In this document: one piece after another, positions 26,400 to 60,078 of the stretch
How positions within the stretch are numbered: position 1 is the first letter of the stretch
Layout of the letters: each line of letters starts with the position of its first letter
Assembly: GCA_016280395.1 (NCBI GenBank)
Contig: JAEEGQ010000056.1
Location: 62,001 to 126,000, forward strand
Direction: 5' to 3'
DNA: 64,000 nt
Origin: Lachnospiraceae bacterium
GTDB lineage: Bacteria; Bacillota; Clostridia; Lachnospirales; Lachnospiraceae
Notes under the pieces: model-generated
The model's database searches: none
What the model was told of the DNA's origin: nothing
The model's input: only the letters and a program-made list of their open reading frames with translations
Program-made: the position numbers and the translations under genes

Positions 26400-27833
26400 A
26401 TGAAGGAGTTTATAAAGGGAGCAAATCCGTATATGCCGCTCTGGGAGCATGTGCCCGACGGTGAACCGCGGGTATTTGAGCACAACGGGGAAAAGCGTGT
26501 CTACGTGTACGGTTCGCACGACATTGAACGCACGCAGTACTGCGGGCGCAATTATGTTGTGTGGTCAGCCCCTGTGGACGATCTGACCGACTGGAAGTAT
26601 CACGGGGTCGCATACGAAACGCATTATGATTCGGTACTGTTTGCGCCCGACGTTGTAAAGAAAGGCGACAGATACTATATGTACGCGGCAGAAAAATGCG
26701 GCAGTCTTATTGTTGTGGCATCTTCTGACAGCCCTTTTGGCCCGTTTGAGGCTCCGAAAGAGACAAAGCTTGGCTTTGATCCCGGGATCCTTGTTGATGA
26801 CGACGGGCGCGTTTACGCTTACTGGGGCGGCTGCGCTGCCCCCTGCTATATAGCCGAGCTTGAAGACGATATGGCGACCATAAAAGAAGGTACAATTGTT
26901 TCGAATCCGCTCGGTCATTCCACATGCCCGTGGGACCCCAAAGACGACGGCCATATCAGCCTTGAGGACGGATTTTTCGAAGCTTCAAGCCCCAGGAAAG
27001 TCCTGGGAAAGTATGTGTATATCTATTCAAAACGCTATGAGGTTCCCGTGCCGGAACTTGGTGTGTTTGAGCCGAATAACGGCTTTTTGTCATATCGCTT
27101 CGCGGACAGTCCGTTCGGACCTTTCCATGACGGAGGCGACATAAGCTTCAACGGCGGCGAGATACTGAAAAGTCCGGAAGGTACCGGAATACAGACATAT
27201 CAATGGGGCAACAACCACGGATCGATCATGGAAGTAAACGGAAAATGGTACATTTTCTATCATCGCCAGACAGGTCTTAACGAATATTCGCGCCAGGCCA
27301 TGCTCGAGCCGGTTGATGTTGCAATGGGAAAAGACGGTAAGCTCTATATCGGCGATGTGAAATATGCCGGCGGTGAGCCCGTATCTTCGGGGCCTGCAGA
27401 GATGACATCCCAGGGAGCGCATATCAACGGGCTAGATGCCCGTAAGTGGATCTCCGCAGGTTATGCCTGCCATATATACGGCAGCAGCAAACGCGCATAT
27501 GTACGGCCGGGCTATGAAATAAGAGACGATATCTCAACGCCTGTAGCCGGTATCACAAGCGGAACCACAGTCGGTTTCCGGTATCTGCAGTTTGGTCCGA
27601 ATACACCCGGGACTGTGACTGTTGTTCTTGAGAAAGCCGTAAAAGCTGTGATAAAGGTAAGACTGGATTCATACAGGGGGCGCGCGATCGCGGAGCTTAG
27701 ATCCGACGGATCGCAAGTATTGCTTACAGAAAGCCTTTGTACCGGGGTTATCGGAAAACACGCGGTCTATTTCGAATTCCTTACGGAAGATCCGGATACA
27801 GAGATCGTATTTGACAGGTTCACATTCGATTAA
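26400..27833 (+). CDS. GH43-family glycosidase with C-terminal beta-sandwich module
   Basis: 477-residue five-bladed propeller enzyme of family 43 (xylosidase/arabinofuranosidase group), with no signal peptide and so probably cytoplasmic. The N-terminus NPYMPLWEHVPDGEPRVF with VYGSHD after it gives the usual first blade and probable catalytic base. FAPDVVKKGDRYYMYAA, LGFDPGILVDDDGRVYAYWGG and EASSPRKVLGKYVYIYSK give later blades, the last holding the probable acid E. Residues about 345-477 form a CBM6-like beta-sandwich. It would cut oligosaccharides brought in by the ABC transporter encoded nearby. GH5 follows on the same strand after 131 bases. Confidence 0.88.
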   Translation: MKEFIKGANPYMPLWEHVPDGEPRVFEHNGEKRVYVYGSHDIERTQYCGRNYVVWSAPVDDLTDWKYHGVAYETHYDSVLFAPDVVKKGDRYYMYAAEKCGSLIVVASSDSPFGPFEAPKETKLGFDPGILVDDDGRVYAYWGGCAAPCYIAELEDDMATIKEGTIVSNPLGHSTCPWDPKDDGHISLEDGFFEASSPRKVLGKYVYIYSKRYEVPVPELGVFEPNNGFLSYRFADSPFGPFHDGGDISFNGGEILKSPEGTGIQTYQWGNNHGSIMEVNGKWYIFYHRQTGLNEYSRQAMLEPVDVAMGKDGKLYIGDVKYAGGEPVSSGPAEMTSQGAHINGLDARKWISAGYACHIYGSSKRAYVRPGYEIRDDISTPVAGITSGTTVGFRYLQFGPNTPGTVTVVLEKAVKAVIKVRLDSYRGRAIAELRSDGSQVLLTESLCTGVIGKHAVYFEFLTEDPDTEIVFDRFTFD

Positions 27834-27964
27834 GCCTCTGATTTTTATGGTAAAACCTGTCTTGAAAATACATTGAAATAGCTGTCATTTACGGATATCT
27901 TTTTAATATGGATCAAAGGCTTGACATATAGCCTTAAGCTAACCTTATAAAGGGGAAGATACCT

Positions 27965-30418
27965 ATGAAAAGAATCAAAATGACAGCTGTTTTAATGATC
28001 ATTATCCTGTGTTTTGCCGCATGCGGGAAGCCGGATCCAACCGGCACGCCTTCCGCCTCTTTGACGGATACGCCCGCTACGCCTACAGATGTTCCCGCTA
28101 CGCCTACAAGCGCGCCGGATATCCTTAACGGCGCGCTTGACGGTTCGGACACAAGCGAGGCTGTGGCCGGGGCAACTAAGGATTTCATCAAAGTCTCGAT
28201 CAATGTTTACTTTAATGACGCAGAGCACAATTATTTTAAGAACGAAGCCGGCAGCGTACTGTATATCTCAAAAGAAGGCACTTATGTCATGACCTTCGAC
28301 TGTGACAAGGATCTTTCGGACGGTGCCAAAGACCTCGGTATTTCTTCGCTTTCAAACCTTACCGCGATCTACTTTCTTGACGCAGGTGTCGCGGAAGGTG
28401 CGCAGTCTCCGCTCAAAGCCGCAAACATCAAATACGAAAAGGTTGTTGTTGACGGCAAAGAACTGACGCTCACAAACAACACTCCAAAGTCCGCTTTTAA
28501 AAGCAACGGCGTTTTTGATACAAACGACCCTATAAATTCCTGGGACGGCTCCGTTGTGGAGGAAGTGGCTGTGAGCAATCATGTCCTTAACTTTACGGAT
28601 CCGTCAAGACCGAAAAAGATCAGCATAACCTTTACCCTGAGCGATCTTGTATGGGGCGGGGATGCTCCGGCGGATACTCCCACTCCCACCCCCACTCCAA
28701 CACAGGCAGCAGGCGGTAATTCCGGCACCGGCTATACCAATACCGCTGTATTCAGCAATCTTGACTTTACAAATATGGATGCGCTCACCCTTTCTAAATA
28801 TATGGGTAACGGCATCAACCTCGGAAACACTTTTGAAGCCTACGGGCACACGTCTCTGGGCGTTTTCGGGCAGGTGCAGAGCTATGAAACGCTCTGGGGC
28901 CAGCCTGTCACAACGGAAGCCATAATAAAGGGCATGAAGGACTGCGGCTTTGACACGCTCCGTATCCCTGTTGCGTGGACAAACATGATGGCTTTCGAAT
29001 CCGGTGATTACACGATCAACACAAAATACCTGGACCGCGTTCAGCAGATAGTGGACTGGGCTGTTAAAGCCGAGATGTTCGTCATCGTGAACGATCACTG
29101 GGACGGCGGATGGTGGGGAATGTTCGGCTCGAAAACACCTGAAACCGTTAATAAAGCCTGGGCGCTGTATGAATCGATGTGGAAGCAGATCGCGGAGCGT
29201 TTCAAAGACTACTCCGAACTGCTCATATTTGAATCCGCAAACGAAGAACTTGGCAACAACCTTAACGATAACACCCTTTGCACCGATTCCGGAAACCTTT
29301 CTGAACAGGGCAAATACGATACGACAAACGCGATAAACCAGAAATTCGTTGATATCGTAAGAGCATCCGGCGGCAAGAACGCAAACAGGTTCCTGCTCAT
29401 AGCCGGTTACAACACAAATATCGCCAACACACTTGACTCGCGGTTTAAGATGCCCAAAGATACCGCATCAAAGAAGCTGTTTGTATCCATACACTATTAT
29501 GACCCGTGGAACTATGCAGGCGCCGAAAACGACGCAAGATGGGGCCTTAAAAAAGAGTATGAATACATGAACGATAAATTCGCATCCTTAAAGAAGTTCA
29601 CGGATGCGGGCTACGGTGTGATCATCGGTGAATACGGCGCGCTTCCTGTCTACGACAGCGCCACAAAGACGCATACTCTCAAGCAGAACACATACGAATA
29701 TACCGAAAACCTGCTCAACAACTGCGATATTTACAACTACGTCCCCGTGCTCTGGTCCTGCAACGATTTCTATGTAAGAACAAAGCAGACAATGTGCGAG
29801 GAAAAGATGACCGAGCTGTTCACCTCGCGCTGCTATGCCGAAGAGGCAAAGAGTGGCGAAGATGCGGCCGCAAAGGCTAAAAAAGCTGTTGAAACGGCAA
29901 CGGCCGCTGCCATTGAAATGTGGGAAGATGTTGAAGCCTACGAGCCCGGAACACCTGTGGCATGGATCATGTGGAACGGCGGTGCGGGTACGTACAGCGT
30001 TGGCGATGTGTTCAACCCTGCGGATAACACCGAAGGGATCACGGCTCATAATGCTATCGTCGACAAGCCCGGCGCGTACGAGGTAAGCCTTGATTTTGCG
30101 GGCGGAAACGACGGCCTGACGTTCGCAGCGCTTGCTATCGCGGACGGCGAGGTTCTTTATCCCGGCAGCTACATCCTTATAGATTCCATAACGATCGACG
30201 GCAACCCGCTCACACTTACAGGCGTTCCCTATACTACATCCGATGACGGAAAATGCCTGCGTGTAAACCTCTTAAACGAGTGGGTTGATAAGGCGCCGGA
30301 CGGCTCGAGATGCCTGACAGCCCCGATCAGCAGCTGCTCTCCCACTGTCGTGGACAAGACACAGCTTGTGGGAATAAAGAACATTACCATTAAATTCAGG
30401 CTCATCAGACTGAACTAA
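27965..30418 (+). CDS. GH5 endoglucanase-type lipoprotein with two accessory modules
   Basis: 817-residue extracellular lipoprotein. Signal ending at Cys20, a Thr/Pro linker, an accessory beta-module (about 72-228), a second Pro/Thr linker (234-250), a GH5 barrel (about 262-620) and a C-terminal beta-module (about 665-817). In GH5, RIPVAW, NDHWDGGWW, acid/base E427 in FESANEEL, H510 in SIHYYDPW and nucleophile E556 in IIGEYGA are all present, so cellulase, mannanase or xyloglucanase activity is expected. The C-terminal module resembles residues 340-470 of the anchored protein at 36573-38771. A weak promoter (TTGAAA, 17 bases, TATCTT) is at 27873-27901. Confidence 0.93.
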   Translation: MKRIKMTAVLMIIILCFAACGKPDPTGTPSASLTDTPATPTDVPATPTSAPDILNGALDGSDTSEAVAGATKDFIKVSINVYFNDAEHNYFKNEAGSVLYISKEGTYVMTFDCDKDLSDGAKDLGISSLSNLTAIYFLDAGVAEGAQSPLKAANIKYEKVVVDGKELTLTNNTPKSAFKSNGVFDTNDPINSWDGSVVEEVAVSNHVLNFTDPSRPKKISITFTLSDLVWGGDAPADTPTPTPTPTQAAGGNSGTGYTNTAVFSNLDFTNMDALTLSKYMGNGINLGNTFEAYGHTSLGVFGQVQSYETLWGQPVTTEAIIKGMKDCGFDTLRIPVAWTNMMAFESGDYTINTKYLDRVQQIVDWAVKAEMFVIVNDHWDGGWWGMFGSKTPETVNKAWALYESMWKQIAERFKDYSELLIFESANEELGNNLNDNTLCTDSGNLSEQGKYDTTNAINQKFVDIVRASGGKNANRFLLIAGYNTNIANTLDSRFKMPKDTASKKLFVSIHYYDPWNYAGAENDARWGLKKEYEYMNDKFASLKKFTDAGYGVIIGEYGALPVYDSATKTHTLKQNTYEYTENLLNNCDIYNYVPVLWSCNDFYVRTKQTMCEEKMTELFTSRCYAEEAKSGEDAAAKAKKAVETATAAAIEMWEDVEAYEPGTPVAWIMWNGGAGTYSVGDVFNPADNTEGITAHNAIVDKPGAYEVSLDFAGGNDGLTFAALAIADGEVLYPGSYILIDSITIDGNPLTLTGVPYTTSDDGKCLRVNLLNEWVDKAPDGSRCLTAPISSCSPTVVDKTQLVGIKNITIKFRLIRLN

Positions 30419-30474
30419 AAAACAAAAACACCGTATTTTCAGCTTTTGTCTTTATTTGCGGCAAGTGTTTATGT

Positions 30475-30480
30475 TATAAT
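30475..30480 (+). promoter_or_regulatory. Likely -10 box of the YesN-type gene
   Basis: TATAAT 39 bases before the start codon. The -35 region holds no good match, as expected if an activator is needed. Confidence 0.4.
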
Positions 30481-30518
30481 GCCTTCGGGAGTAAACAACA
30501 CTTTCAGAGGCAGGAACG

Positions 30519-32060
30519 ATGAGATCACTTTACATCGCAGATGACGAAAAAGCTATAAGAGACGGCATTAAACTGTTAATAGACTGGGCAGGGTTAGGCT
30601 ATGCCCTGTGCGGAGAGGCCGGCAACGGCACCGATGCCGCAGAAGACATAGCCCGCCTTAAGCCCGACCTTGTGCTCATGGATATCCGTATGCCCGGAAA
30701 AAGCGGTCTGGACGCAATTCGCGACCTTACAACAGACGGCTTTGAAGGGCATTTTATTATCCTTTCGGGCTTTTCGGATTTCAAGTATGCCCAGGCCGCA
30801 ATGAAGTACAATGTCCGTCACTACCTTACAAAACCGATAGATGAAGACGAGCTTGTATCCGCGGTAAACGAGATATCCGCCCTGCTCGACAGCAGAGCGG
30901 ACGCAAAGTCAAAAGAACAGTTCCTTCGCAGCCGTTCCAAAAAAGAGATAATCCAGGACATCCTTAACCACAGCATAGACTTGAAGCGGCTGTCTCCCGA
31001 AGAGTTCGGGCTTAATGCTGACAAGTATCAGATCGTTGCCTATGAGGATTTTAACGAATCCGGGAAAAATCTCTCTTACCGCTTTTCCGATCTTTTTAAT
31101 GCTGCGGGCAGTGATTCGGGCGTGTCGGTGCATTTTACCTATAAGGGCTACGACCTTCTCCTGCTGCTCGGCAACCCCGGCATCATGCGTTTTGACAGAT
31201 TTCTCGCGCATTACGAGGATTCGCCCGAGGAGGGCAGCCCCCTTGACAGTATCTTTATCGCCTACGGCAGCATAGTAGATTCTCTCGGGGATATAACCGA
31301 TTCCTACAAACAGGCCGAAGAGCTGCTCAGGCGCAGGTTTTTCTGCGTTCAGGGCCAGCATGTCCTCGGTTACAAGGACCTTCCTTCCGTGAAAAACTGT
31401 CCGGAGAAACTTGAATCCTCAAGAATAGACGGATTTACAGGCGAGATAACGGATTTTCTGCAGACCTTCAACAGACGGAAGGTGGCTGAAGCCCTGTATT
31501 CCCTTGAGGAATACCTGTATCATGTTGATGCGGGCATTTCCGAAGTAAAGCTGTTCCTTGCAGATCTGTATCTCAGGATAAAGGATGTGATGACCCATCG
31601 CCACAGCACTGTCACGCTTCCCTTCGATTCAAACTCCGAGATAATCGATTTCATAAACAGACAGCATTATCTTTACGAGATAATCTTCTACTTCTCTCAC
31701 TGCTTCGAGGGCCTTATGGGTGCTCTCGGCCATTCGTCGAGAGACAGTGTTATCGACGATATCCTCTACTACATAGACCATAATTACAATACAAACCTTA
31801 AGCTTGAAACCATCGCATCCCTGTTCGGATATAACAGTTCCTACCTCGGAAAGATATTTACAAAGACCGTTGGAGACAGCTTTAACACATATGTTGACAG
31901 GAAGCGTATAGAGCACGCGACAAAAATGCTTAAAGAGGGCAATCTCAAGGTTTACGAAATAGCCGAAAAGACCGGCTACAGCAATGTCGATTACTTCCAC
32001 AAGAAGTTCAAGAAATATGTGGGCGTAAGTCCTGCAGAATATCGCGCAAAAAACAGCTGA
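30519..32060 (+). CDS. YesN-type response regulator with AraC DNA-binding domain
   Basis: 513-residue regulator. The N-terminal receiver domain carries the acidic pair after YIADD, the phosphorylation site D54 in LVLMDIRMPG and the lysine in YLTKPIDED. A long central helical region follows (about 130-400). The C-terminal AraC-type double helix-turn-helix reads NLKLETIASLFGYNSSYLGKIF and KVYEIAEKTGYSNVDYFHKKFKKY. Such regulators are paired with YesM-type kinases and control glycan-uptake operons. Here the kinase gene lies 7 kb away on the other strand (38922-40733), flanking the transporter. Its 3' end is six bases from repeat copy 2. Confidence 0.93.
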   Translation: MRSLYIADDEKAIRDGIKLLIDWAGLGYALCGEAGNGTDAAEDIARLKPDLVLMDIRMPGKSGLDAIRDLTTDGFEGHFIILSGFSDFKYAQAAMKYNVRHYLTKPIDEDELVSAVNEISALLDSRADAKSKEQFLRSRSKKEIIQDILNHSIDLKRLSPEEFGLNADKYQIVAYEDFNESGKNLSYRFSDLFNAAGSDSGVSVHFTYKGYDLLLLLGNPGIMRFDRFLAHYEDSPEEGSPLDSIFIAYGSIVDSLGDITDSYKQAEELLRRRFFCVQGQHVLGYKDLPSVKNCPEKLESSRIDGFTGEITDFLQTFNRRKVAEALYSLEEYLYHVDAGISEVKLFLADLYLRIKDVMTHRHSTVTLPFDSNSEIIDFINRQHYLYEIIFYFSHCFEGLMGALGHSSRDSVIDDILYYIDHNYNTNLKLETIASLFGYNSSYLGKIFTKTVGDSFNTYVDRKRIEHATKMLKEGNLKVYEIAEKTGYSNVDYFHKKFKKYVGVSPAEYRAKNS

Positions 32061-32066
32061 TCATCA

Positions 32067-32193
32067 ATCGAGTAGGCTGACGCCTACTCGATTCGACGGG
32101 TCATCTCGCGTACGAAGTCCGCTCAATGACCGTTCGCTCAGCCCTCGTCCAGCAAGCGAGCTTGCTGCCGAGGGCATTCGCTTATCGCACAAA
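32067..32193. repeat. Structured 127-bp repeat, copy 2
   Basis: Same orientation as 19299-19425 with a single base difference. It begins six bases after the yesN-type stop codon and ends at a bidirectional terminator hairpin. As with copy 1, the terminator of a minus-strand gene adjoins the right end; flanking sequence is otherwise unrelated. Confidence 0.9.
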
Positions 32194-32194
32194 T

Positions 32195-32232
32195 AAAGCC
32201 CGGAACCGGTCAAACAACCGGTTCCGGGCTTT
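32195..32232. terminator. Bidirectional rho-independent terminator
   Basis: Perfect 16-bp stem AAAGCCCGGAACCGGT/ACCGGTTCCGGGCTTT with a loop of six, between the converging YesN-type and substrate-binding-protein genes; T/A runs lie on both sides. Confidence 0.92.
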
Positions 32233-32261
32233 TCCTGAGAGGAATAAAAAGTTAGGAGAGA

Positions 32262-34043
32262 TTATTTTTTTGTCCTTTCTGCTTCTTCAAGGGCGTGCCT
32301 CTTTACCGCCTCGTCCTGTGACCACTTCTTGCATTTCTCGTAACCGTATGCAATCGCTGTGTTTATCATCTGCTGGACATAATAGTTGAACTCGCCGTCG
32401 GAGCTTGCGTAGATCGCTTTCCAGCTGTAATCCACGATACAGGTCGTAACCTGCTTCCAGATAAGCTCGAAATCGTCGTCCATTTCGGCCTCGGTATACT
32501 CGATCGCAGGAGCCATCCTGTAATCGAGGGTTTCCATGTATTCTCCCATTGTCTCGGCACCGGTATAAGCGGTCCAATCACGCTGGATATCGTAGTTGCT
32601 GTCAAGAAGGATGCTCCTCCAATACTTGTTGTCGTATGTATCGCCTGTAGTATTGGGATTGATCTCATTGACGGACCATGTGGTGTTGTTTATCTGAAGC
32701 TCACCGTCATGGAACGTTCCGCCCGCATAGATCCCGGCCTCTTCTTCGGTCATGATGGTGTTCTCTTTATCGTTTATTGCCTTCTTTCCGAACTCTGTAA
32801 GGCAGGCACGTCCCTGATCGTCATAATACCAGGTTACGCCTTTGGGGCCGTAAAGGGATTCCATGTAGCCGTCAGGGGTGCACAGCCAGTTGATTATCTG
32901 CATGCAAAGTTCGGGATGTTCCGTGTTCGCACCGATGGTCCATACACGGTTTCCGCCGTAAGGACTCATGCCGTAGCAGAGCGGTACGGCATCCTGGGGA
33001 ACCATCGTGTACATGTATTTACCTTCTGACATGTGTGCGTCGGTGTTGTAGCTGAGGCTGCCGGCATAGTTGAAGATAGAGAAGAATACGCCGCCGACCT
33101 TAAGTTTCTCGATCATTTCCGTGTATGTCTGTGACATGGAGTTGGGATCGAGGAGCTTTTTCTGATAGAGAGTGTTGAAGAATTTCAGGGATGTAAGGTA
33201 CGGGCCGTCCTTTTCAAGTGCATCATGGAAAGTGCCGGTGTCCGGGTCGTATATGCCGAGCTGGAACTCGTCATATCCCCAGTAAGCTGTTGCAAAGGCC
33301 TTTACGTACATTACCATGTTTCCGTCCCAGTCAGGCCAGATGGATACCGCATATGTCGGATTCCCGTTCTCATCTGTCGGGCAGATCTCCTTCATGCGCT
33401 CGAACAGTGTAACAAGGTCGTCAAGGTTCTTTACAACAGGATACCCGAGGGCCTTATAAAGATCCCAGCGGACATCCCATGTATAGAAGAACTGTTCATG
33501 GGACTCACTCGAAAGGGCAACGGAATGGCCAAAACCGTACAGGGCATTGCTTTCGCCTTCGGTAATGGTGGAGGTGAGCTTCTTGTTGGCTTCAAGCGCT
33601 GTTCCCATGTGATCCCTCATGTACTGGCCGTATTTATTCAGCAGATCGTATTTGTTCCAGTCGAGCAGCATGTCGTTCTTTACGGCTCTCTTGTAATCGT
33701 TGCCGGTCGAACCGAAAACCACTATATCTCCAAGCTTTCCGGCTTCCATACGCGTATCAAAAACACCGTCGGAATCAGGGATTATCGTGAGTTTTACGTT
33801 GAACTTGTCAAGCAGGAGCTTGGCGCACCATCCCTGCTGTTCTCCCGAATAATTGGCAAGCTGCGAATACACCACGATCTCAACGGGGTCCTTTTTATCG
33901 CCGTTACCGTTATTATTCTCGCCTGCGCCGTTTGTCACGTTGTTTTCGCCGCGCTGGCCGGTAGGCTGGTTACCGCAGCCCGCAACCGACAGCACCATAG
34001 CGATCACAAGAACGATCGCAGTCATTCTTTTAAATGCTTTCAT
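32262..34043 (-). CDS. ABC transporter substrate-binding lipoprotein
   Basis: 593-residue extracellular solute-binding protein (family 1, LipO/LplA type). The signal peptide ends in the lipobox VAGC (Cys23), followed by an Asn/Gly-rich linker. The remainder has the usual two-lobed length for binding oligosaccharides. It is the last gene of a minus-strand unit whose two permease genes precede it by 49 bases; no ATPase gene is included, as usual for this class, which shares a MsmK-type ATPase encoded elsewhere. Together with the GH5/GH43 enzymes it probably takes up beta-linked oligosaccharides. Confidence 0.93.
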   Translation of the reverse strand: MKAFKRMTAIVLVIAMVLSVAGCGNQPTGQRGENNVTNGAGENNNGNGDKKDPVEIVVYSQLANYSGEQQGWCAKLLLDKFNVKLTIIPDSDGVFDTRMEAGKLGDIVVFGSTGNDYKRAVKNDMLLDWNKYDLLNKYGQYMRDHMGTALEANKKLTSTITEGESNALYGFGHSVALSSESHEQFFYTWDVRWDLYKALGYPVVKNLDDLVTLFERMKEICPTDENGNPTYAVSIWPDWDGNMVMYVKAFATAYWGYDEFQLGIYDPDTGTFHDALEKDGPYLTSLKFFNTLYQKKLLDPNSMSQTYTEMIEKLKVGGVFFSIFNYAGSLSYNTDAHMSEGKYMYTMVPQDAVPLCYGMSPYGGNRVWTIGANTEHPELCMQIINWLCTPDGYMESLYGPKGVTWYYDDQGRACLTEFGKKAINDKENTIMTEEEAGIYAGGTFHDGELQINNTTWSVNEINPNTTGDTYDNKYWRSILLDSNYDIQRDWTAYTGAETMGEYMETLDYRMAPAIEYTEAEMDDDFELIWKQVTTCIVDYSWKAIYASSDGEFNYYVQQMINTAIAYGYEKCKKWSQDEAVKRHALEEAERTKK

Positions 34044-34092
34044 AAGCTCTCCTCTCTGTGTGAGACCGGAACTGCACCCGGCCCTCTTCCTG

Positions 34093-35058
34093 TCAGCCTT
34101 TTACGGCTCCAAGCATTATACCCTTTTCAAAATACTTCTGCATCCAGGGATAAACAAGCAGGATGGGAAGCACTGTCACCATCGCAATGGTGTATTTTAT
34201 CACCTTTCCCGAGTTCAGCTGGCTTATGATCTTTTCCAGATCCGAAGAAGACCTTCCCGTATCGATGACCGATGCGATGTTGCTGGACTGGTTGAGCCAG
34301 ATGTACAGCTTGTGCTGCAGTGTGTGCAGGTTCGGTGAGTTCTGCATGTTGATGACCGAATCCATGAAGGAGTTCCAGTGTCCCACCGCTCCGAAGATCG
34401 CTATCGTGGCGAGGATCGGTTTTGAAAGCGGAAGGATCACCTTGCGGAATATCATCATGTGACCGGCTCCGTCTATAAACGCGCTTTCTTCAAGCTCTCC
34501 CGGGATCGATTCGATGTAGGTCTTTACAAGTATGATGTTGAAGGGCTGTACTATCGCCGGGATTATATACCCGAGGAAATTGTCCGTAAGACCGAGCATC
34601 AGCATATTTGTATAGCCCGGGATAAGACCGGCATTAAAATACATGGTGATAACGAGGAATCTGTACCAGAACTTGCGGTTCCACATTTCCTTCTTTGTCA
34701 CAAGATATCCACAGAAGGCGGATGCCACCACCATCAGCGCGGTACCGATGACCGTTCTTGACACCGTTACGACGAAGGCGCGTCCAAGATCGCTCAATGC
34801 CAGAAGATCTTTGTAGTTCTGCAGTGTGAATCCTATCGGATAGAAATTGACATCACCGCGCGCCACCATCTCACTGTTTGAAACGGTGTTTATGAACAGA
34901 TAGTAAAAGGGGAAGAAGCATAAAAGTGCGAACAATCCGAATACCAGATAATCGGTGATCAAGAACGCTGCATCCCCGCCCTTTAGTTTAACATGTTTTT
35001 TCCGCTTGTTACAAGAGGCTTTTAGAACATCGATCGAGATTTCTTCCTGATTTGCCAT
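34093..35058 (-). CDS. Carbohydrate ABC permease (LplC-type)
   Basis: 321-residue inner-membrane permease with six predicted spans. The cytoplasmic EAA loop that contacts the ATPase reads ELEESAFIDGAGHMMIFRKVILPLSKP. The segment is slightly degenerate at the start (EESAFIDGAG). It belongs to the CUT1/LplC group and would form a dimer with the next permease. The start lies 24 bases after the stop of that gene. Confidence 0.93.
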   Translation of the reverse strand: MANQEEISIDVLKASCNKRKKHVKLKGGDAAFLITDYLVFGLFALLCFFPFYYLFINTVSNSEMVARGDVNFYPIGFTLQNYKDLLALSDLGRAFVVTVSRTVIGTALMVVASAFCGYLVTKKEMWNRKFWYRFLVITMYFNAGLIPGYTNMLMLGLTDNFLGYIIPAIVQPFNIILVKTYIESIPGELEESAFIDGAGHMMIFRKVILPLSKPILATIAIFGAVGHWNSFMDSVINMQNSPNLHTLQHKLYIWLNQSSNIASVIDTGRSSSDLEKIISQLNSGKVIKYTIAMVTVLPILLVYPWMQKYFEKGIMLGAVKG

Positions 35059-35081
35059 TGCAGGTCTTTGCTCCTTTCTCC

Positions 35082-36557
35082 TCAGATTATGCTTTCACCG
35101 CGAACGGTCTTTGATATCCTGTTCGCTATAAACAGCAATGTTACGCTGACAAGCGTCTTTAACATGCCTATAACGGTGGACAGAGGGATCTTGCCTGCCC
35201 CGATACCCAGCGTGTACACGTAAAGGTCGAGGACTTCGAGCGTATCCTTCGTTTTTGCGTTTGAGAACACAAGATACTGATCCATGCCGTTACTTAGGAT
35301 ACCTGCAACGGACATAAGGAGCATTACCGAATAAGTAGGCATTAACCCCGGAAGCGTTACATGGACCATCTTCTGGAAACGGCCCGCGCCATCGACCGTT
35401 GCAGCCTCGTAAAGCTGCTGGTCTATGCCGGATATGCCCGCGATATAGATTATCGCACTCCAGCCTATGCCCTTCCATATTCCCCACAGGAGCATCTTAA
35501 GGTACAAAGCATGATTATCCATCAGGTAAAGCTCGTTGTGCGGAACTCCCGTGAGTTTTGTCATTATGTTGTTGATAAAGCCTTCATTCGAGAAAATTGC
35601 AAACGCTATGGCATAAACAAGAACCCAGCTTATAAAGTTCGGTATCGTTGTCGTTACCTGAACGAGCCTTCTGAACCAGCCGCATTTTATCTCCGAAAGG
35701 AAAATGGCAAATGCCATAGCCAGCCAGCTCGTTGCTATGCCAAGACCGCTCATTATGAGCGTATTGCGCATTACACGGTAGATATCCGATCTTGTCATAG
35801 GGTTCTCGATAAGGCTCCTGAACCACTTAAAGCCCACGAAATCATCCATGTTGAGTGTCCCGGGGCCGGATTTGTAGTTAAAGAACGCGTATCTCCAGCC
35901 GTAAAGCGGAAGATATGAGAAAATAAAGGACAGAACGATAAACGGCAGGAACATTATAAAAAGCTTGTAGCTCGTTGCCATTTCGCATTTTTCGTCCTTT
36001 GCGGGCCTCGGCTGGAATACCACGAGCAGGATCGCACAGATCAGCTGCAGTATTGCGAAACCAAGCATAAAGAACAGCGCTGCCGGCAGTTTATCCGTCG
36101 CCATGTTAAAGCCGACGGTATCTGCGATCTCAAGGTCCGCCGCTTTGTAAAGGCTGTATGTTGCGAGCATCTTGAAAAAGCCCGCTATGACCGCTGCCGC
36201 GCCGCCAAGTGTAACATAGTTTGAAATGCGCTTCATCTTAAGGTTGCCAAGCGAAATGCATGCGGCAACCGAGAGTATGATCACACCGGCCACCATAAGG
36301 GCCGATGCGATCATGAGGCTGTATATATCACTTTTGAAGATGTAATTGTGGTTGATCTCATATTTGATGTTAACCACGATCCTCTCATAAGACAGAGCGG
36401 ATGTAAACAGCGACATATTCTTGTTCATCTGCGTAAGTATCCTGGCGGGATTAAACTCGCTGAAAAACACCAGAACGAACGCAAAAAGAAGACTTATCCT
36501 TGTGGGATAATAGAGCTTGTCCGTCCATCCATTGCTTATTACTATCTTCTTAGCCAT
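35082..36557 (-). CDS. Carbohydrate ABC permease (LplB-type) with extra N-terminal spans
   Basis: 491-residue permease, much longer than the usual about 300. The core after residue 205 is a normal LplB-type subunit with EAA loop YEAATVDGAGRFQKMVHVTLPG. The first 190 residues add about four further hydrophobic segments (around 20-35, 78-105, 112-140 and 160-185) with no motif I know. ATG at 36557 with GGAGAG before it is preferred to a TTG four codons upstream. It begins 15 bases after the surface binding-protein gene, so the two are co-transcribed. Confidence 0.9.
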   Translation of the reverse strand: MAKKIVISNGWTDKLYYPTRISLLFAFVLVFFSEFNPARILTQMNKNMSLFTSALSYERIVVNIKYEINHNYIFKSDIYSLMIASALMVAGVIILSVAACISLGNLKMKRISNYVTLGGAAAVIAGFFKMLATYSLYKAADLEIADTVGFNMATDKLPAALFFMLGFAILQLICAILLVVFQPRPAKDEKCEMATSYKLFIMFLPFIVLSFIFSYLPLYGWRYAFFNYKSGPGTLNMDDFVGFKWFRSLIENPMTRSDIYRVMRNTLIMSGLGIATSWLAMAFAIFLSEIKCGWFRRLVQVTTTIPNFISWVLVYAIAFAIFSNEGFINNIMTKLTGVPHNELYLMDNHALYLKMLLWGIWKGIGWSAIIYIAGISGIDQQLYEAATVDGAGRFQKMVHVTLPGLMPTYSVMLLMSVAGILSNGMDQYLVFSNAKTKDTLEVLDLYVYTLGIGAGKIPLSTVIGMLKTLVSVTLLFIANRISKTVRGESII

Positions 36558-36572
36558 TTTGCTCTCCAAGGA

Positions 36573-38771
36573 TTATTTTTTCCTGCGTAATAAAACGAAT
36601 GCTCCAACGCCTGCGAGAACGACAACACCTGCGCAGATGCCGATTATAAGACCAAGATTGCCTTTATCTGCGGGCTTACCCGAGTCGCCTGTCGGCTGTG
36701 TGGGTGTAGGTGTGCTTGTAGCTGCCTTCTCCGGAGCCTCTGTAGGGTTGTTTGCGGGTGCTTCTGTAGGAGTGGGTGTAGCAGCGGGTTCGTCTGCTTT
36801 CTTGTCATAATTGAAGCCGCTTACCGTAAAGGTGATCTCGATGCTTGTCATCGGTGTCTTGTAAGCGCCGATCTGTGCGATGTCGCCCTTACTGTAGGTG
36901 CTCTCCAGCATAACCTGCATGTAGTTGATGCTTTCCTTGTTAAGCTCCTGGGAACCTTCGGGAAGATCTATGGTCTTACCTTCAACCTTAAGGCTTATAT
37001 TGCTGATCGTGATCTCATTCGTGTTGGGGATATCCGTTGAGAGCATGATGTAGTTCATGTGGTCCTGAGAATCGAAATCACCCGAAAGATCGAGACCGTC
37101 AACGGAAACCGTATATGTTCCGTTACCTTCGATAACAACATCATGGAATTCACCGGGTCTCTTTATCGCTTTGTTGTCAGCATCCCAGCCCGTTACCTGC
37201 ATGAAGTACTCTGTTCCGTCATCTGCCTTTACTCCGCGTCCGTAGTTCGGTTCATCAAAATTGTTACGGAAGGAATAAGTCGGTGTCTGGAAGCAAAGGT
37301 ATGCATTGTACTTTCCGTCGAGATCTACAGGGCCTGCGTTTGAACCGGCCGGCTCATTTCCGCCCTGGAGATTTTCAAAAGCACCTGCAACAGTAAAGTA
37401 AACTTCGATGGTCTTTAATGCCGCAACCTGCTCGGGTGTAAGAAGTCTTGCGGTTGCCGCTGCCTTGTCGCCCGCCGTACGGCAGTCGATGTAGCCCTTG
37501 CTGTTCTCTGTTTCAAAATCGGGATTGTTCCACTCATTGTAAAGGTTTACTCGTGTATCAACGCCCATGCCGTCTGCGGAGCATGTGTAGGAAACACCCT
37601 GCAGAGCGATCTCTTCGCCGTTGAGCACGATCTTGTCGATAGTTACGGTAAAGGTGGTACCAAAGATAACTTCGCCGTTAGGGAGCGAGAGGCATTCAAA
37701 CTGTCCGCCGCCGAGAGCTTCGGGAAGCTCTGCTTTTACAACATAAGAGCCGTTGCCCTTTACGGTCGCCGTTGTGATAACTGCACCGGTATCGGACCAG
37801 TCTGCTTTGTTAAGACTTAATGTTGCTTCGGAAACTTCGCCTACAACAACGCCGCTCTCTGTATATTTTCTTACAACGAACTGTGTTCCTGCGTAGGAAT
37901 CCCAGCCGAGCGCGATAACTTCGATAACATCATCCTTTGAAGCCGGAACCATGATCTTTCCGCGAAGAGATGCGGCATCAACCGTACCTGCCCAGTTCTT
38001 GCCGTCAACGCCGCCGCTTATATCTTCGGTGCCGTCTCCGTCAACATCCCAGCCCCAGGTAACCTGTGCGCCGCCCCACTCATAATAGGACTTGGTGCCG
38101 TCGGCATGTGTAACGGCGATACCGTTTACACACCAGTCGTTATAGCTGAAGGTATCTCCGAGAGATGCAAGATACTCAACATCGATGATAACGGAATTGC
38201 ATTCGTTGGCAACGGTATAGGTCGAACCTGCCGTCTTGCCGTCAGTATACTTTACGCCGCCGCTTACGGTTGCTTCGCCGCCTTCGGTAACTTCAACGGT
38301 AAACTGTGTGCCTGCGTAAGAATCCCATGAAGTAACGATAAAATCTACAACTGCGCCTTTTTCAGCGGGAATACCGAGCGTAGCGGTAAGAGTCTCGGTG
38401 CTTGCGTTTCCGAGCCATGTTCCGCCGTTTACGCCGTAGGAATCATCTGATTTGTCTTCATCGGCATCCCAGCCCCAGCTAACCTGTGCGCCGCCCCACT
38501 GATAGTAGGACTTGCTGCCGTCAACGTGGTTTACGACAACGCCGTAACCGCACCAGTCATTAAGCGCAAAGGCTTCACCGTCTGCGGGTGAAAATGTGAT
38601 ATTTGCCGTAATTACGTTAACGTCACCGGTAACCGTATAGGAATAACTCGGTGTTTTGCCGTCTGTATACTTACATCCAACAGGATCGGCCTTTACTCCG
38701 AACCCGCCTGATGCGATGACCAGAACGGCCGCCATCAGTGCCGCGAAGAATTTTCTAAGGTTCTTCTTCAT
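36573..38771 (-). CDS. Membrane-anchored multi-module carbohydrate-binding protein
   Basis: 732 residues, secreted and anchored. Signal peptide (1-29); two tandem related modules of about 130 residues (33-160 and 173-302), both with NDWC and KSYY, followed by WGGAQV and WGWD; a third module (about 318-470) like the C-terminal module of the GH5 protein; a fourth (about 485-680); a Thr/Pro-rich stalk; and a C-terminal membrane span followed by LRRKK. No catalytic motif is seen. The first two modules are also similar at DNA level (38050-38101 against 38473-38524), a recent duplication. Gene order places it at the head of the transporter operon: it likely holds glycan at the cell surface. Confidence 0.85.
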   Translation of the reverse strand: MKKNLRKFFAALMAAVLVIASGGFGVKADPVGCKYTDGKTPSYSYTVTGDVNVITANITFSPADGEAFALNDWCGYGVVVNHVDGSKSYYQWGGAQVSWGWDADEDKSDDSYGVNGGTWLGNASTETLTATLGIPAEKGAVVDFIVTSWDSYAGTQFTVEVTEGGEATVSGGVKYTDGKTAGSTYTVANECNSVIIDVEYLASLGDTFSYNDWCVNGIAVTHADGTKSYYEWGGAQVTWGWDVDGDGTEDISGGVDGKNWAGTVDAASLRGKIMVPASKDDVIEVIALGWDSYAGTQFVVRKYTESGVVVGEVSEATLSLNKADWSDTGAVITTATVKGNGSYVVKAELPEALGGGQFECLSLPNGEVIFGTTFTVTIDKIVLNGEEIALQGVSYTCSADGMGVDTRVNLYNEWNNPDFETENSKGYIDCRTAGDKAAATARLLTPEQVAALKTIEVYFTVAGAFENLQGGNEPAGSNAGPVDLDGKYNAYLCFQTPTYSFRNNFDEPNYGRGVKADDGTEYFMQVTGWDADNKAIKRPGEFHDVVIEGNGTYTVSVDGLDLSGDFDSQDHMNYIMLSTDIPNTNEITISNISLKVEGKTIDLPEGSQELNKESINYMQVMLESTYSKGDIAQIGAYKTPMTSIEITFTVSGFNYDKKADEPAATPTPTEAPANNPTEAPEKAATSTPTPTQPTGDSGKPADKGNLGLIIGICAGVVVLAGVGAFVLLRRKK

Positions 38772-38811
38772 AAAACATCCTCCTCAAATAGTCTGTGCCC
38801 CTTTTGGAAGC

Positions 38812-38843
38812 AAAAATACCGCGCAGGAAATTCCTGCACGGTA
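38812..38843 (-). terminator. Rho-independent terminator after the YesM-type gene
   Basis: Stem TACCG-GCAGGA/TCCTGC-CGGTA with one mismatch and a loop of three, then TTTTTG on the minus strand. It separates the kinase unit from the surface-protein/transporter operon. Confidence 0.8.
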
Positions 38844-38921
38844 TATAGGATACCTTAATCGACTTCGTAAAAAAACCTGAAGGATTTGACATGAAACACT
38901 GTAAAAATTCTACCACCCGGT

Positions 38922-40733
38922 TTAAGTGTCCGTCATCTGCGGTATAACGACGGAAACCTTTGTTCCGCTGCCTTTAACGCTGCTTATGCTTATCCCGTAC
39001 TCGCTTCCGTAACTGAGCTTGATCCTGCGGTTGACGTTATACAGCCCGATACTGTCGGTCCTTTCCTCTCCTTCGTAGCTGTCCAGTCTCGCCTTAAGCT
39101 CCGCAAGTTCTTCTTCCCCGATCCCGTTTCCGTTATCGGAAATGTCGATGACAAGCTTCTTTTCGGAAGTAAACACGTCAACACGTACCAATCCGCCTGA
39201 CTCACGCCCTTCAAGACCGTGTATGATGGCGTTTTCCGCAACCGGCTGCAGGAGAAGCCCGAGCATCTTGTAATTCTCTGTCTTAAGCCCTTCCCCTACA
39301 TTGATCTCGTAATTCACACGGTCGCCAAAACGCAGCTGCTGGATCTGAAGGTATACCCGAAGATGCTCAAGCTCCTTCTGGAGCGTCGTATCGCGGGTGC
39401 CCGTGTTTTCAAGCACATAACGCATGGATCTTCCGAGGAGGCGCGTTGCGTTTGCGACCTCGGTATCGCCGGCTGTAAGCGCCTTCATGCGGATAGTCTC
39501 AAGTGTATTATAGAGGAAATGAGGGTTTATCTGGCTCGAGAGCATCTTGAACTCTATTTCCTGCTGGTTGTTGCGTATTTCCTGTGCCCTGATCTGTGCC
39601 TCGTACTGTTCGGCTTCCATGCGCTGGATGTCATGGACCATCTTCTGAAGGTCGTTAAAGGCGTCGGCAAGCTCCACGCTTCCCCAGAGCTCCTTCTTCA
39701 TATCGGCGTATTCTCCGCGGCTGGCCTTGCCCATTTCGTCACGAAGGCTCCGTACCTGCGTTGTGAACCTGCGGGTAAATATCGATATGATTATCAGAGG
39801 CAGTATGACGGCAAGTCCGAGTATGAGATAGCTGACCCTTACACCGTGCCGTATGCCGGTTATCGCTTCGGTATCATAGGAGATAAGGTACATCTTGTTT
39901 GACGAGCGCGAGATAGTGAGAGTATCAGCATTTACAAGCGCCGCTTTCCCGTTGAAATTCACCTGGCCCTCATACGTGAAATACCTGTCATCATAGTCTA
40001 TGTCGATCTCCGGACGTTTTCCGTAGAAGGCATTGGTGCTCGCAAAAGCGACCGTCTGGTCGTCAACGGAAATCATTGATGTATATCTTGAACTTGTAAG
40101 ACGGCTTGCAAGATACGAGTTTCTCACTTTTATCATTATGACCGCTTCGCCCTCGCCGCCCACAAGCACCATTTTACGCACCAGCACCAGGTTCCAGGTC
40201 TTGTTGGTATTTCTGCTGTCAAGGGACTCGTAGGCCATAAAGAACGGCAGATACTGCTCCGAAGCCTTCTGGTACCAGTCGGAGTTTCTTACCTCGTCGG
40301 TTACCTTGTGGAACTGGCCGTAATCAACCATATCCTCGCGGTCAATATATACGTAGATAGTGTCAAGGCCCGCGTATCTTGCGGTATATTTGTCGAGGAG
40401 CGATGTCCTCGACGCTGCGACCACCATGTCCTGTTCACTCTCATAGGTGCCGTTCAGGAAGCTTATGAGACTGTCGTTGTATACGATGCTGTCCGAAATG
40501 GTTATAAGCTGCGTCGTGATCTCATATATCGTCTGGCTTACGGCTTCGTTGTTGCTCGCAAGCAGGTCCGAATAGTATTTCTTCTGATTCGAGCTCACAT
40601 TTGCGATAAGGAACGAGCCTATGAGCAAAAGGGGCAAAAAAACCGCAAGGCAATAAACCATAAGCAGCTGGCTGCTGATCTTCCACCTGCCTATTGCGTG
40701 TTTATTCCTGCGGTTTTCCGTATTATCTTTCAC
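38922..40733 (-). CDS. YesM-type sensor histidine kinase
   Basis: 603-residue membrane kinase of the LytS/YesM class. One span near residues 20-45, an extracellular Cache-like sensor domain (about 50-290), a second span (about 298-320), a HAMP domain, a coiled coil, then the His-kinase box NPHFLYNTLETIRMKA and ATPase motifs QPVAENAIIHGL, ISDNGNGIG and GIGLYNVNRR-like SIGLYNVNRRI. It starts with GTG overlapping the stop of the upstream gene (GTGA), and only a weak AAGAAG precedes, so translation is probably coupled. The partner is almost certainly the YesN-type regulator at 30519. Confidence 0.93.
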   Translation of the reverse strand: MKDNTENRRNKHAIGRWKISSQLLMVYCLAVFLPLLLIGSFLIANVSSNQKKYYSDLLASNNEAVSQTIYEITTQLITISDSIVYNDSLISFLNGTYESEQDMVVAASRTSLLDKYTARYAGLDTIYVYIDREDMVDYGQFHKVTDEVRNSDWYQKASEQYLPFFMAYESLDSRNTNKTWNLVLVRKMVLVGGEGEAVIMIKVRNSYLASRLTSSRYTSMISVDDQTVAFASTNAFYGKRPEIDIDYDDRYFTYEGQVNFNGKAALVNADTLTISRSSNKMYLISYDTEAITGIRHGVRVSYLILGLAVILPLIIISIFTRRFTTQVRSLRDEMGKASRGEYADMKKELWGSVELADAFNDLQKMVHDIQRMEAEQYEAQIRAQEIRNNQQEIEFKMLSSQINPHFLYNTLETIRMKALTAGDTEVANATRLLGRSMRYVLENTGTRDTTLQKELEHLRVYLQIQQLRFGDRVNYEINVGEGLKTENYKMLGLLLQPVAENAIIHGLEGRESGGLVRVDVFTSEKKLVIDISDNGNGIGEEELAELKARLDSYEGEERTDSIGLYNVNRRIKLSYGSEYGISISSVKGSGTKVSVVIPQMTDT

Positions 40734-57852: not shown

Positions 57853-58023
57853 GCATTATTTTTTCGTCCGGTTACACAAAAACTGTTTATTTATGGTTTA
57901 GATGCTTATTATATCCTTGTATATGAAATGATTTTGTGATAAAGTTATCATGATATGATATGCTTTCATACCGAACAGAATAAAACAAACTCTAAAGCCA
58001 AACAGCTTTACACGGAGGTTTGT

Positions 58024-60078
58024 ATGATAACACGCTATACTTTCGGAAATCCCGTTGAAACATATGCCGTACCTCAAAAGCCTGAGGCCTGCGGGAAGCT
58101 CCTGCCTTTTTTTGAGCGCAGTGAAGACGGCCTTACCTACAGCATGAAGCTTAATAAGGATGAGATCGTTTACGGACTCGGAGAACAGATCCGCGGAATT
58201 AACAAGCGGGGATGGACTTACACCTCGTTCTGCGCCGATAATCCCCATCACGAGGAAGGCACGCATTCACTGTACGGAGCCCACAATTTCCTTGTGTTTG
58301 ACAGGGAAAAGCCCTTTGGCGTCTTCTTTGACCATCCGGGTGAAATGACTTTTGACATAGGGTATTCGGACCTTGATACAATAAAGATAACCGCAAGATA
58401 TCCCGACACAGACATCTACATCATTGACGGCGAGACGCCCTACGGGATAGTCAGGGCCTTCAGGAAGCTCATAGGCCAAAGCTACATTCCGCCGCTTTTC
58501 GGTTTCGGTTTCCAGCAGAGCCGCTGGGGTTACAGATGCAAAGAGGATGTGGACAGGGTCCTTGAAGCCTACAGTGCTTACGGTCTTCCTCTCGACTCCG
58601 TCTGTCTTGACATAGACTACATGGAGGATTACAAGGACTTTACCGTGAACAGCGGGCGTTTTCCGGATTTTGAGGATTATGTCGCTTCGCTGAAGAAGGA
58701 AAATATCCACCTTATCCCGATAATAGACGCAGGCGTTAAGATCGAAGAAGGCTATGACGTTTACGAAGAAGGCAGAGAGAACGGTTATTTCTGCAAAAAG
58801 CAGGACGGAAGCGACTTTGTGGCGGGAGTCTGGCCCGGCCGCACGCATTTCCCGGATTTCTTAAACCCCGACGTAAGAAAATGGTTCGGTGAAAAATATT
58901 ACAGGCTTACCGAGGCCGGGATCGAAGGCTTCTGGAATGATATGAACGAGCCCGCGATGTTCTATTCGGATGAAGGCCTTGAAAAGGCAAAACAGCAGAT
59001 TCAGGCCGTTTTTTCAAAAGAGATCGACATTGAAGGCTTTTTCGCCCTTGGCGGTCTTATGAATTCCATAAGCAACAGCCCCGCGGATTATGCTTCGTTT
59101 TACCACGAATTTGACGGCATTCGCGCAAGACATGACACCGTCCATAACCTGTTCGGCTATAATATGACCAAAGCCGCTGCCGAAGCCTTCGCCGCAAAAT
59201 ACCCCGACAGGCGCCTGCTGCTTTACTCGCGTGCGTCCTACATCGGCGCCCACAGGTACGGCGGCATCTGGACAGGCGACAACATGTCCTGGTGGAGCCA
59301 CCTGCTCCTCAACATAAAGATGATGCCGTCCCTCAATATGTGCGGTTTCCTGTATTCCGGCGCGGACCTTGGCGGGTTCGGCGCGGATACAAGCGGCGAC
59401 CTGCTCCTCCGCTGGCTGCAGTTCGGAATCTTTACCCCGCTCATGCGTGACCACAGCGCCATAGGCACCCTGCTCCAGGAGCCCTACCGCTTCGGAAACA
59501 TCGATGCCTTCAGGCGCACCCTGCAGCTTCGTTACAGGCTTATGGGCTATATCTACAGCGAGTTCATGAAAGCCGCCCTTGAGGACGAGTGCCTGTTCCG
59601 CCCCCTTGCCTTCGATTATCCCGAAGACACGTTTGCAAAACGCGTTGAGGACCAGCTGATGTTTGGCGAATCCCTGATGCTTGCGCCGGTTTATGAGCAG
59701 AATGCCAGAGGCCGCTATGTTTATCTTCCCGAGGATATGCTGTTCGTGAAGTTCATCTCACTTGAGGAAGCCGAAAATGAGCGTTTTGTGGAATATCTCG
59801 AGGACGGGACGCCTTACATCGCAAAGCCGATGCCGGCAGGACACCATTATATCGATGTCGCCCTTGACGAAACACACCTGTTTGTGCGCCCCGGAAAGCT
59901 GCTGCCGCTGCTTCGCCCGGCAAATACCACTGCGGAGCTGGATTTCACAGCACCCGAGGTGATCGCATATCCCCACGGGCAAAAAGAGCTTGCCTACAGG
60001 TATTACACGGACGATGGCGTCACAAAGGACTACACGGAAGCCTCGCACTTTAAGAATATCGTGTTTACTGTCAAATGA
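58024..60078 (+). CDS. GH31 alpha-glucosidase/xylosidase-type enzyme
   Basis: 684-residue intracellular enzyme of family 31. Barrel motifs: LDIDYMEDYKDF, GFWNDMNEPAMF with nucleophile D306, and WTGDNMSWWSHL with acid/base D419. The segment around NSGRFPDF and the C-terminal beta-domain are also present. Sequence favours an alpha-glucosidase, but alpha-xylosidase (for xyloglucan) cannot be excluded. ATG at 58024 has GGAGG five bases upstream. A weak promoter (TTGTAT, 17 bases, TAAAGT) at 57917-57945 is followed by palindromic ATCATGAT, a possible operator. Confidence 0.92.
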   Translation: MITRYTFGNPVETYAVPQKPEACGKLLPFFERSEDGLTYSMKLNKDEIVYGLGEQIRGINKRGWTYTSFCADNPHHEEGTHSLYGAHNFLVFDREKPFGVFFDHPGEMTFDIGYSDLDTIKITARYPDTDIYIIDGETPYGIVRAFRKLIGQSYIPPLFGFGFQQSRWGYRCKEDVDRVLEAYSAYGLPLDSVCLDIDYMEDYKDFTVNSGRFPDFEDYVASLKKENIHLIPIIDAGVKIEEGYDVYEEGRENGYFCKKQDGSDFVAGVWPGRTHFPDFLNPDVRKWFGEKYYRLTEAGIEGFWNDMNEPAMFYSDEGLEKAKQQIQAVFSKEIDIEGFFALGGLMNSISNSPADYASFYHEFDGIRARHDTVHNLFGYNMTKAAAEAFAAKYPDRRLLLYSRASYIGAHRYGGIWTGDNMSWWSHLLLNIKMMPSLNMCGFLYSGADLGGFGADTSGDLLLRWLQFGIFTPLMRDHSAIGTLLQEPYRFGNIDAFRRTLQLRYRLMGYIYSEFMKAALEDECLFRPLAFDYPEDTFAKRVEDQLMFGESLMLAPVYEQNARGRYVYLPEDMLFVKFISLEEAENERFVEYLEDGTPYIAKPMPAGHHYIDVALDETHLFVRPGKLLPLLRPANTTAELDFTAPEVIAYPHGQKELAYRYYTDDGVTKDYTEASHFKNIVFTVK

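Follow-up and report, generated by a model that had tools for sequence, protein, structure and literature searches.

A membrane-anchored four-module protein as a candidate glycan-capture component of a Lachnospiraceae ABC-importer locus

In a gut or rumen Lachnospiraceae bacterium, a gene next to a pair of ABC permease genes encodes a 732-aa protein in which sequence inspection and Pfam reveal no enzyme domain. What could such a protein contribute to a locus that combines an importer with glycoside hydrolases? The original prediction was a three-module surface protein serving a SusD-type capture step. Our analysis of the window (the whole stretch of DNA studied, 64,000 nucleotides) suggests that it is probably a non-catalytic, membrane-anchored glycan-capture protein of a xyloglucan/beta-glucan locus.

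The locus and its anchored protein

By Pfam assignment, the genes for GH5, GH43, the ABC permeases, the solute-binding protein, the histidine kinase and the response regulator all lie within positions 26400-40733. The features of the locus are as follows (A1-A3 are family alignments of M4, of M3 with the GH5 C-terminal module, and of M1/M2, respectively):

26400..27833, + strand: GH43 (PF04616), best solved match an arabinofuranosidase/xylosidase
27965..30418, + strand: GH5 lipoprotein (PF00150), best solved match the GH5 entry 3zmr
28163..28684, + strand: GH5 N-terminal module (GH5-N), distant relative in the M3/M4 superfamily (hhalign)
29930..30415, + strand: GH5 C-terminal module (GH5-C), relative of M3 (E 1e-13; hhalign; alignment A2)
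30519..32060, + strand: AraC-type response regulator (PF00072, PF12833)
32262..34043, - strand: solute-binding lipoprotein (PF13416), with no PDB sequence relative
34093..35058, - strand: ABC permease 2 (PF00528)
35082..36569, - strand: ABC permease 1 (PF00528, 1.5e-12), with an N-terminal extension of ~190 aa
36573..38771, - strand: anchored four-module protein, 732 aa (ORF)
36573..36779, - strand: Pro/Thr-rich linker and C-terminal TM helix with RRKK (from sequence)
36780..37331, - strand: module M4, aa 481-664 (hhalign to the M3 set; alignment A1; family survey)
37332..37835, - strand: module M3, aa 313-480, homologue of GH5-C (hhalign; alignment A2)
37836..38267, - strand: module M2, aa 169-312, with a DxDGDG calcium-loop-like motif (M1/M2 comparison; alignment A3)
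38268..38687, - strand: module M1, aa 29-168, with a DxDxD loop (alignment A3)
38688..38771, - strand: signal peptide, aa 1-28 (by eye from sequence)
38813..38845, - strand: hairpin followed by a T run, between the kinase and anchored genes (fold of the leader)
38871..38892, - strand: leader box, 22 bases, upstream of the anchored gene
38922..40733, - strand: YesM-type histidine kinase (PF06580, PF02518)

Judged from its sequence, the 732-aa protein is membrane-anchored through the C-terminal TM helix. The stretch before this helix reads TGDSGKPADKGNLGLIIG... and lacks LPXTG; sortase anchoring was ruled out on that ground. The prediction needed correcting on two points: the fourth module, M4, had been missed, and the anchor is of the TM type rather than the sortase type. 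An M4-only protein elsewhere (locus L034, 8440-9219) has an LPKTG sortase-type end, whereas most relatives end in a TM helix and KKKK.

As predicted, the ABC permease is the next gene, 15 bases on: the ATG of permease 1 lies at that distance from the stop codon of the anchored gene, or at 3 bases if an upstream in-frame TTG is the start. Relatives of permease 1, about 480-540 aa long, have the N-terminal extension too, whereas in L031 and L042 the permeases belonging to other systems measure 298-333 aa.

Upstream of the anchored gene, the 12-mer core of the leader box, TGTCAAATCCTT, recurs in related loci, both ahead of the orthologous gene (L025, 3600-3611; L026, 3980-3991; L028, 4580-4591) and ahead of a related gene (L070, 7503-7514), and it is kept even where the upstream gene differs. 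The box is possibly a response-regulator site or a promoter. Its use as a marker of a GH5/GH43 regulon was dropped, since the anchored gene was the only one found to have it upstream. Between the box and the start, ~45 bases upstream of the ATG, a strong hairpin and T run form a candidate terminator of the kinase mRNA or a candidate attenuator.

Two groups of modules

M1 and M2, predicted to be tandem modules with shared motifs, are 48% identical over 130 aa (E 2e-43; 0 of 500 shuffles scored as high), M1 carrying YYQWGGAQVSWGWD and M2 YYEWGGAQVTWGWD. The predicted resemblance of the third module to the C terminus of the GH5 protein proved to be true homology: M3 and GH5-C share 30% identity over 142 aa (E 1e-13, z 18.9), again with no shuffle of 500 reaching that score, and the Gly-x-x-Tyr segment followed by VNL-NEW is present in both proteins, as GVSYTCSADG...RVNLYNEW in M3 and GVPYTTSDDG...RVNLLNEW in the GH5 protein. 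Profile-profile alignment of the same pair, using family sets with module boundaries drawn by hand, gave 99.9% (E 6e-35) in hhalign. Comparisons of further sets with hand-drawn boundaries gave 97% for M3 with M4, 95% for M3 with GH5-N, 93% for GH5-C with GH5-N, 92% for M4 with GH5-C and 64% for M4 with GH5-N, as against 0.1-0.8% for M1/M2 with every other module set. These values place M3, M4 and the two GH5 modules in one superfamily, and M1/M2 in a separate one. Single-sequence comparison of M3 with M4 gave nothing convincing, so their link rests on profiles; GH5-N, on the same profile scores, is the weakest link of the superfamily. The relative of M3 forms a discrete, non-catalytic C terminus of the GH5 protein, both in the window and in related GH5s. 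Its presence in the anchored protein as well as in the endo-glucanase of the locus is typical of carbohydrate-binding modules. Elsewhere, a 1318-aa GH5 protein (L040, 7945-11901) joins GH5-N-type and M1/M2-type modules.

The membership of M3, M4 and both GH5 modules in one superfamily would also suit a docking or scaffold protein, whose related modules would keep GH5 beside the importer by binding to one another or to the solute-binding protein rather than to glycan. In L041, L076 and L078 the gene directly ahead of the importer encodes an anchored protein made of M4 alone, which fits this idea. We nevertheless regard it as unlikely: the GH5 protein itself looks like a lipoprotein, so a docking partner is unnecessary; M1 and M2, unrelated to any part of GH5, would have no role; and the modules also turn up in proteins encoded away from any importer or GH5.

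Glycan capture raises the question of which binding-module family might be involved. The 732-aa protein has no family match in Pfam, NCBIfam or the PDB; it falls below the cut-offs of the curated CBM models in Pfam, to which members of alignments A1-A3 have no convincing match, and neither the protein nor profiles A1-A3 found a convincing sequence match in the PDB. A CGTase match of A2 in the PDB was set aside as weak (E 0.005 over just 70 positions), as were Shr-like_HID, CBM_15 and other single Pfam matches (E 0.00025-0.04), each of which touched one alignment row only. AlphaFold models of M3-M4 (mean pLDDT 75; M4 better, with most blocks >80) and of M1-M2 (mean pLDDT 56) are both strand-rich, and the folds are predicted, at low to moderate confidence, to be generic beta-sandwiches. 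With the M3-M4 model, Foldseek returned 0 matches at E <= 0.001, and VIA-align no significant structural match (best Z 5.1); the best VIA-align match of the M1-M2 model, at its pLDDT of 56, was a phage tail protein (Z 8.6), to which no meaning is attached here. Since no structural match is significant, a CBM family can be neither named nor excluded for these modules.

Recurrence beside ABC importers

Lachnospiraceae MAGs contain close relatives (76-78%) as well as more distant ones. In a survey of the family, M4 matches were found in 17 of 396 genomes, and the permease was the next same-strand gene for 10 of the 18 strong matches with readable context (not for the other 8). Conversely, the N-terminal extension of permease 1, used as a query, gave 27 matches in 26 of 299 family genomes; an anchored module protein was encoded directly upstream of 11 of the 23 permeases with readable upstream sequence and was absent from 12. 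The predicted operon link is borne out by this adjacency in related loci, although the loci share descent, so that the counts are not independent trials and the recurrence partly reflects common ancestry.

Permease adjacency is kept while the N-terminal modules of M4 proteins differ (M12, M3, X, Y or none). Most importer-linked proteins have M4 in last position, which a Y module occupies in L035, L036 and L042. No other part of these Lachnospiraceae proteins is as widely shared as M4, which usually lies nearest the membrane; outside the family, a class-wide survey of 292 genomes matched it in only one. M4 is probably the common base, with outer modules exchanged between lineages. The 1084-aa product of L084 (6748-10002) has four GH5-C-like modules, one M3-like and one Y module and a TM anchor, with no importer nearby.

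Roughly half of the importers of this kind come without the anchored protein, and no importer adjoins eight of the strong M4 proteins, which counts against the capture reading. Could the protein instead serve adhesion in general, to plant fibre or to other surfaces, its co-transcription with the importer being incidental? Strong M4 proteins away from importers (L034, L038, L039, L074, L075, L080), and the existence of a long tandem-module protein without one (L084), would fit. Direct importer adjacency, however, recurs across many genera with varied module make-up, and we give an adhesin only a small chance of being the explanation. Still less probable is a sensor accessory that would offer ligand to the YesM-type histidine kinase. 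A kinase gene is immediately upstream in the window, L025, L035-L037, L070-L073 and L076, yet L125, L127 and L128 have this kinase-importer pair and no anchored gene, and in L026 and L028 a different gene precedes the anchored one.

Substrate, proposed role and known systems

Among solved structures, the GH5 protein matched 3zmr first, followed by beta-1,3-1,4-glucanase and xyloglucanase entries. The PDB describes 3zmr as a GH5 cellulase; we take it to be the Bacteroides ovatus xyloglucanase BoGH5A. Importer loci carry genes for xyloglucan side-chain enzymes (GH31, GH29, GH42, GH95, GH3): in BLAST searches at least one was present at 16 importer loci and at none of the importer-less module loci, six of the surveyed loci having themselves supplied the GH queries. 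Three GH31s of related loci exceed the curated alpha-xylosidase cut-off (>1200 bits). The window locus has GH43 and GH5 only, with no side-chain GHs adjacent; a GH31 at 57955-60078, ~19 kb away, falls below the cut-off, as does every other GH31 match in the source genome, making the substrate less certain here than for the loci of the relatives. The gene evidence points to xyloglucan or beta-glucan. Mannan was rejected as a substrate, as no supporting gene was found.

Building on the observed module homology, gene order, recurrence and sequence-based anchor, we infer binding, substrate and a role in uptake as follows. M1-M4 would keep soluble beta-glucan from plant walls, with xyloglucan the likeliest, close to the membrane for cleavage by the GH5 lipoprotein that the locus also encodes; the released oligosaccharides would then pass to the solute-binding protein and on to the two ABC permeases. 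There is about an even chance, in our estimation, that proteins of this kind are dedicated, non-catalytic surface capture proteins that serve Gram-positive ABC-type xyloglucan loci as a modular, exchangeable part; their modules would then represent two binding-module families not described before, M1/M2 and the M3/M4/GH5-C superfamily.

Of the original proposal, the module homology and the operon context hold, as does the idea of a probable capture step; the SusD label is too loose. Pfam gives no SusD match for the 732-aa protein, and import here is by an ABC system instead of a SusC partner. It is the ABC solute-binding protein that takes the SusD-like part, so the anchored protein is closer to the accessory kind, SGBP-B or SusE/SusF. 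Those Bacteroidetes proteins are likewise non-catalytic, anchored and composed of tandem binding modules, and are encoded with an importer and an endo-glycanase, as in the role proposed here; they differ in being outer-membrane lipoproteins of SusCD systems, whereas the present protein is Gram-positive, TM-anchored and linked to an ABC importer. Pfam and PDB searches found no sequence relationship to them.

The mixed-linkage glucan gpPUL of Blautia producta is also a Gram-positive glucan locus with an anchored modular protein and an ABC importer, but its anchored protein is the GH16 enzyme itself (PMC10318527), in contrast to the non-catalytic protein described here. The anchored capture candidate is of interest because gpPULs were stated to lack SGBPs, with enzyme-borne CBMs substituting (PMC10318527). 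If capture is correct, that picture of Gram-positive glycan loci would be revised, rumen and gut Firmicutes would have a polymer-capture step for hemicellulose use, and a recurring, operon-linked anchored protein would add candidate CBM families.

Sas20 of Ruminococcus bromii is, like the protein proposed here, a non-catalytic Gram-positive surface polysaccharide-binding protein; it belongs to the starch amylosome (PMC9112005), whereas the present locus is of GH5/xyloglucan type within an ABC operon. The xyloglucan cluster of Ruminiclostridium cellulolyticum comprises an ABC importer, a two-component system, GH31, GH3 and GH42, and the available part of its description mentions no anchored binding protein (PMC4780118). 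Its gene set, as given there, matches several of the related loci; the enzymes of that cluster are a cytoplasmic set, in place of which the window locus has GH5 and GH43.
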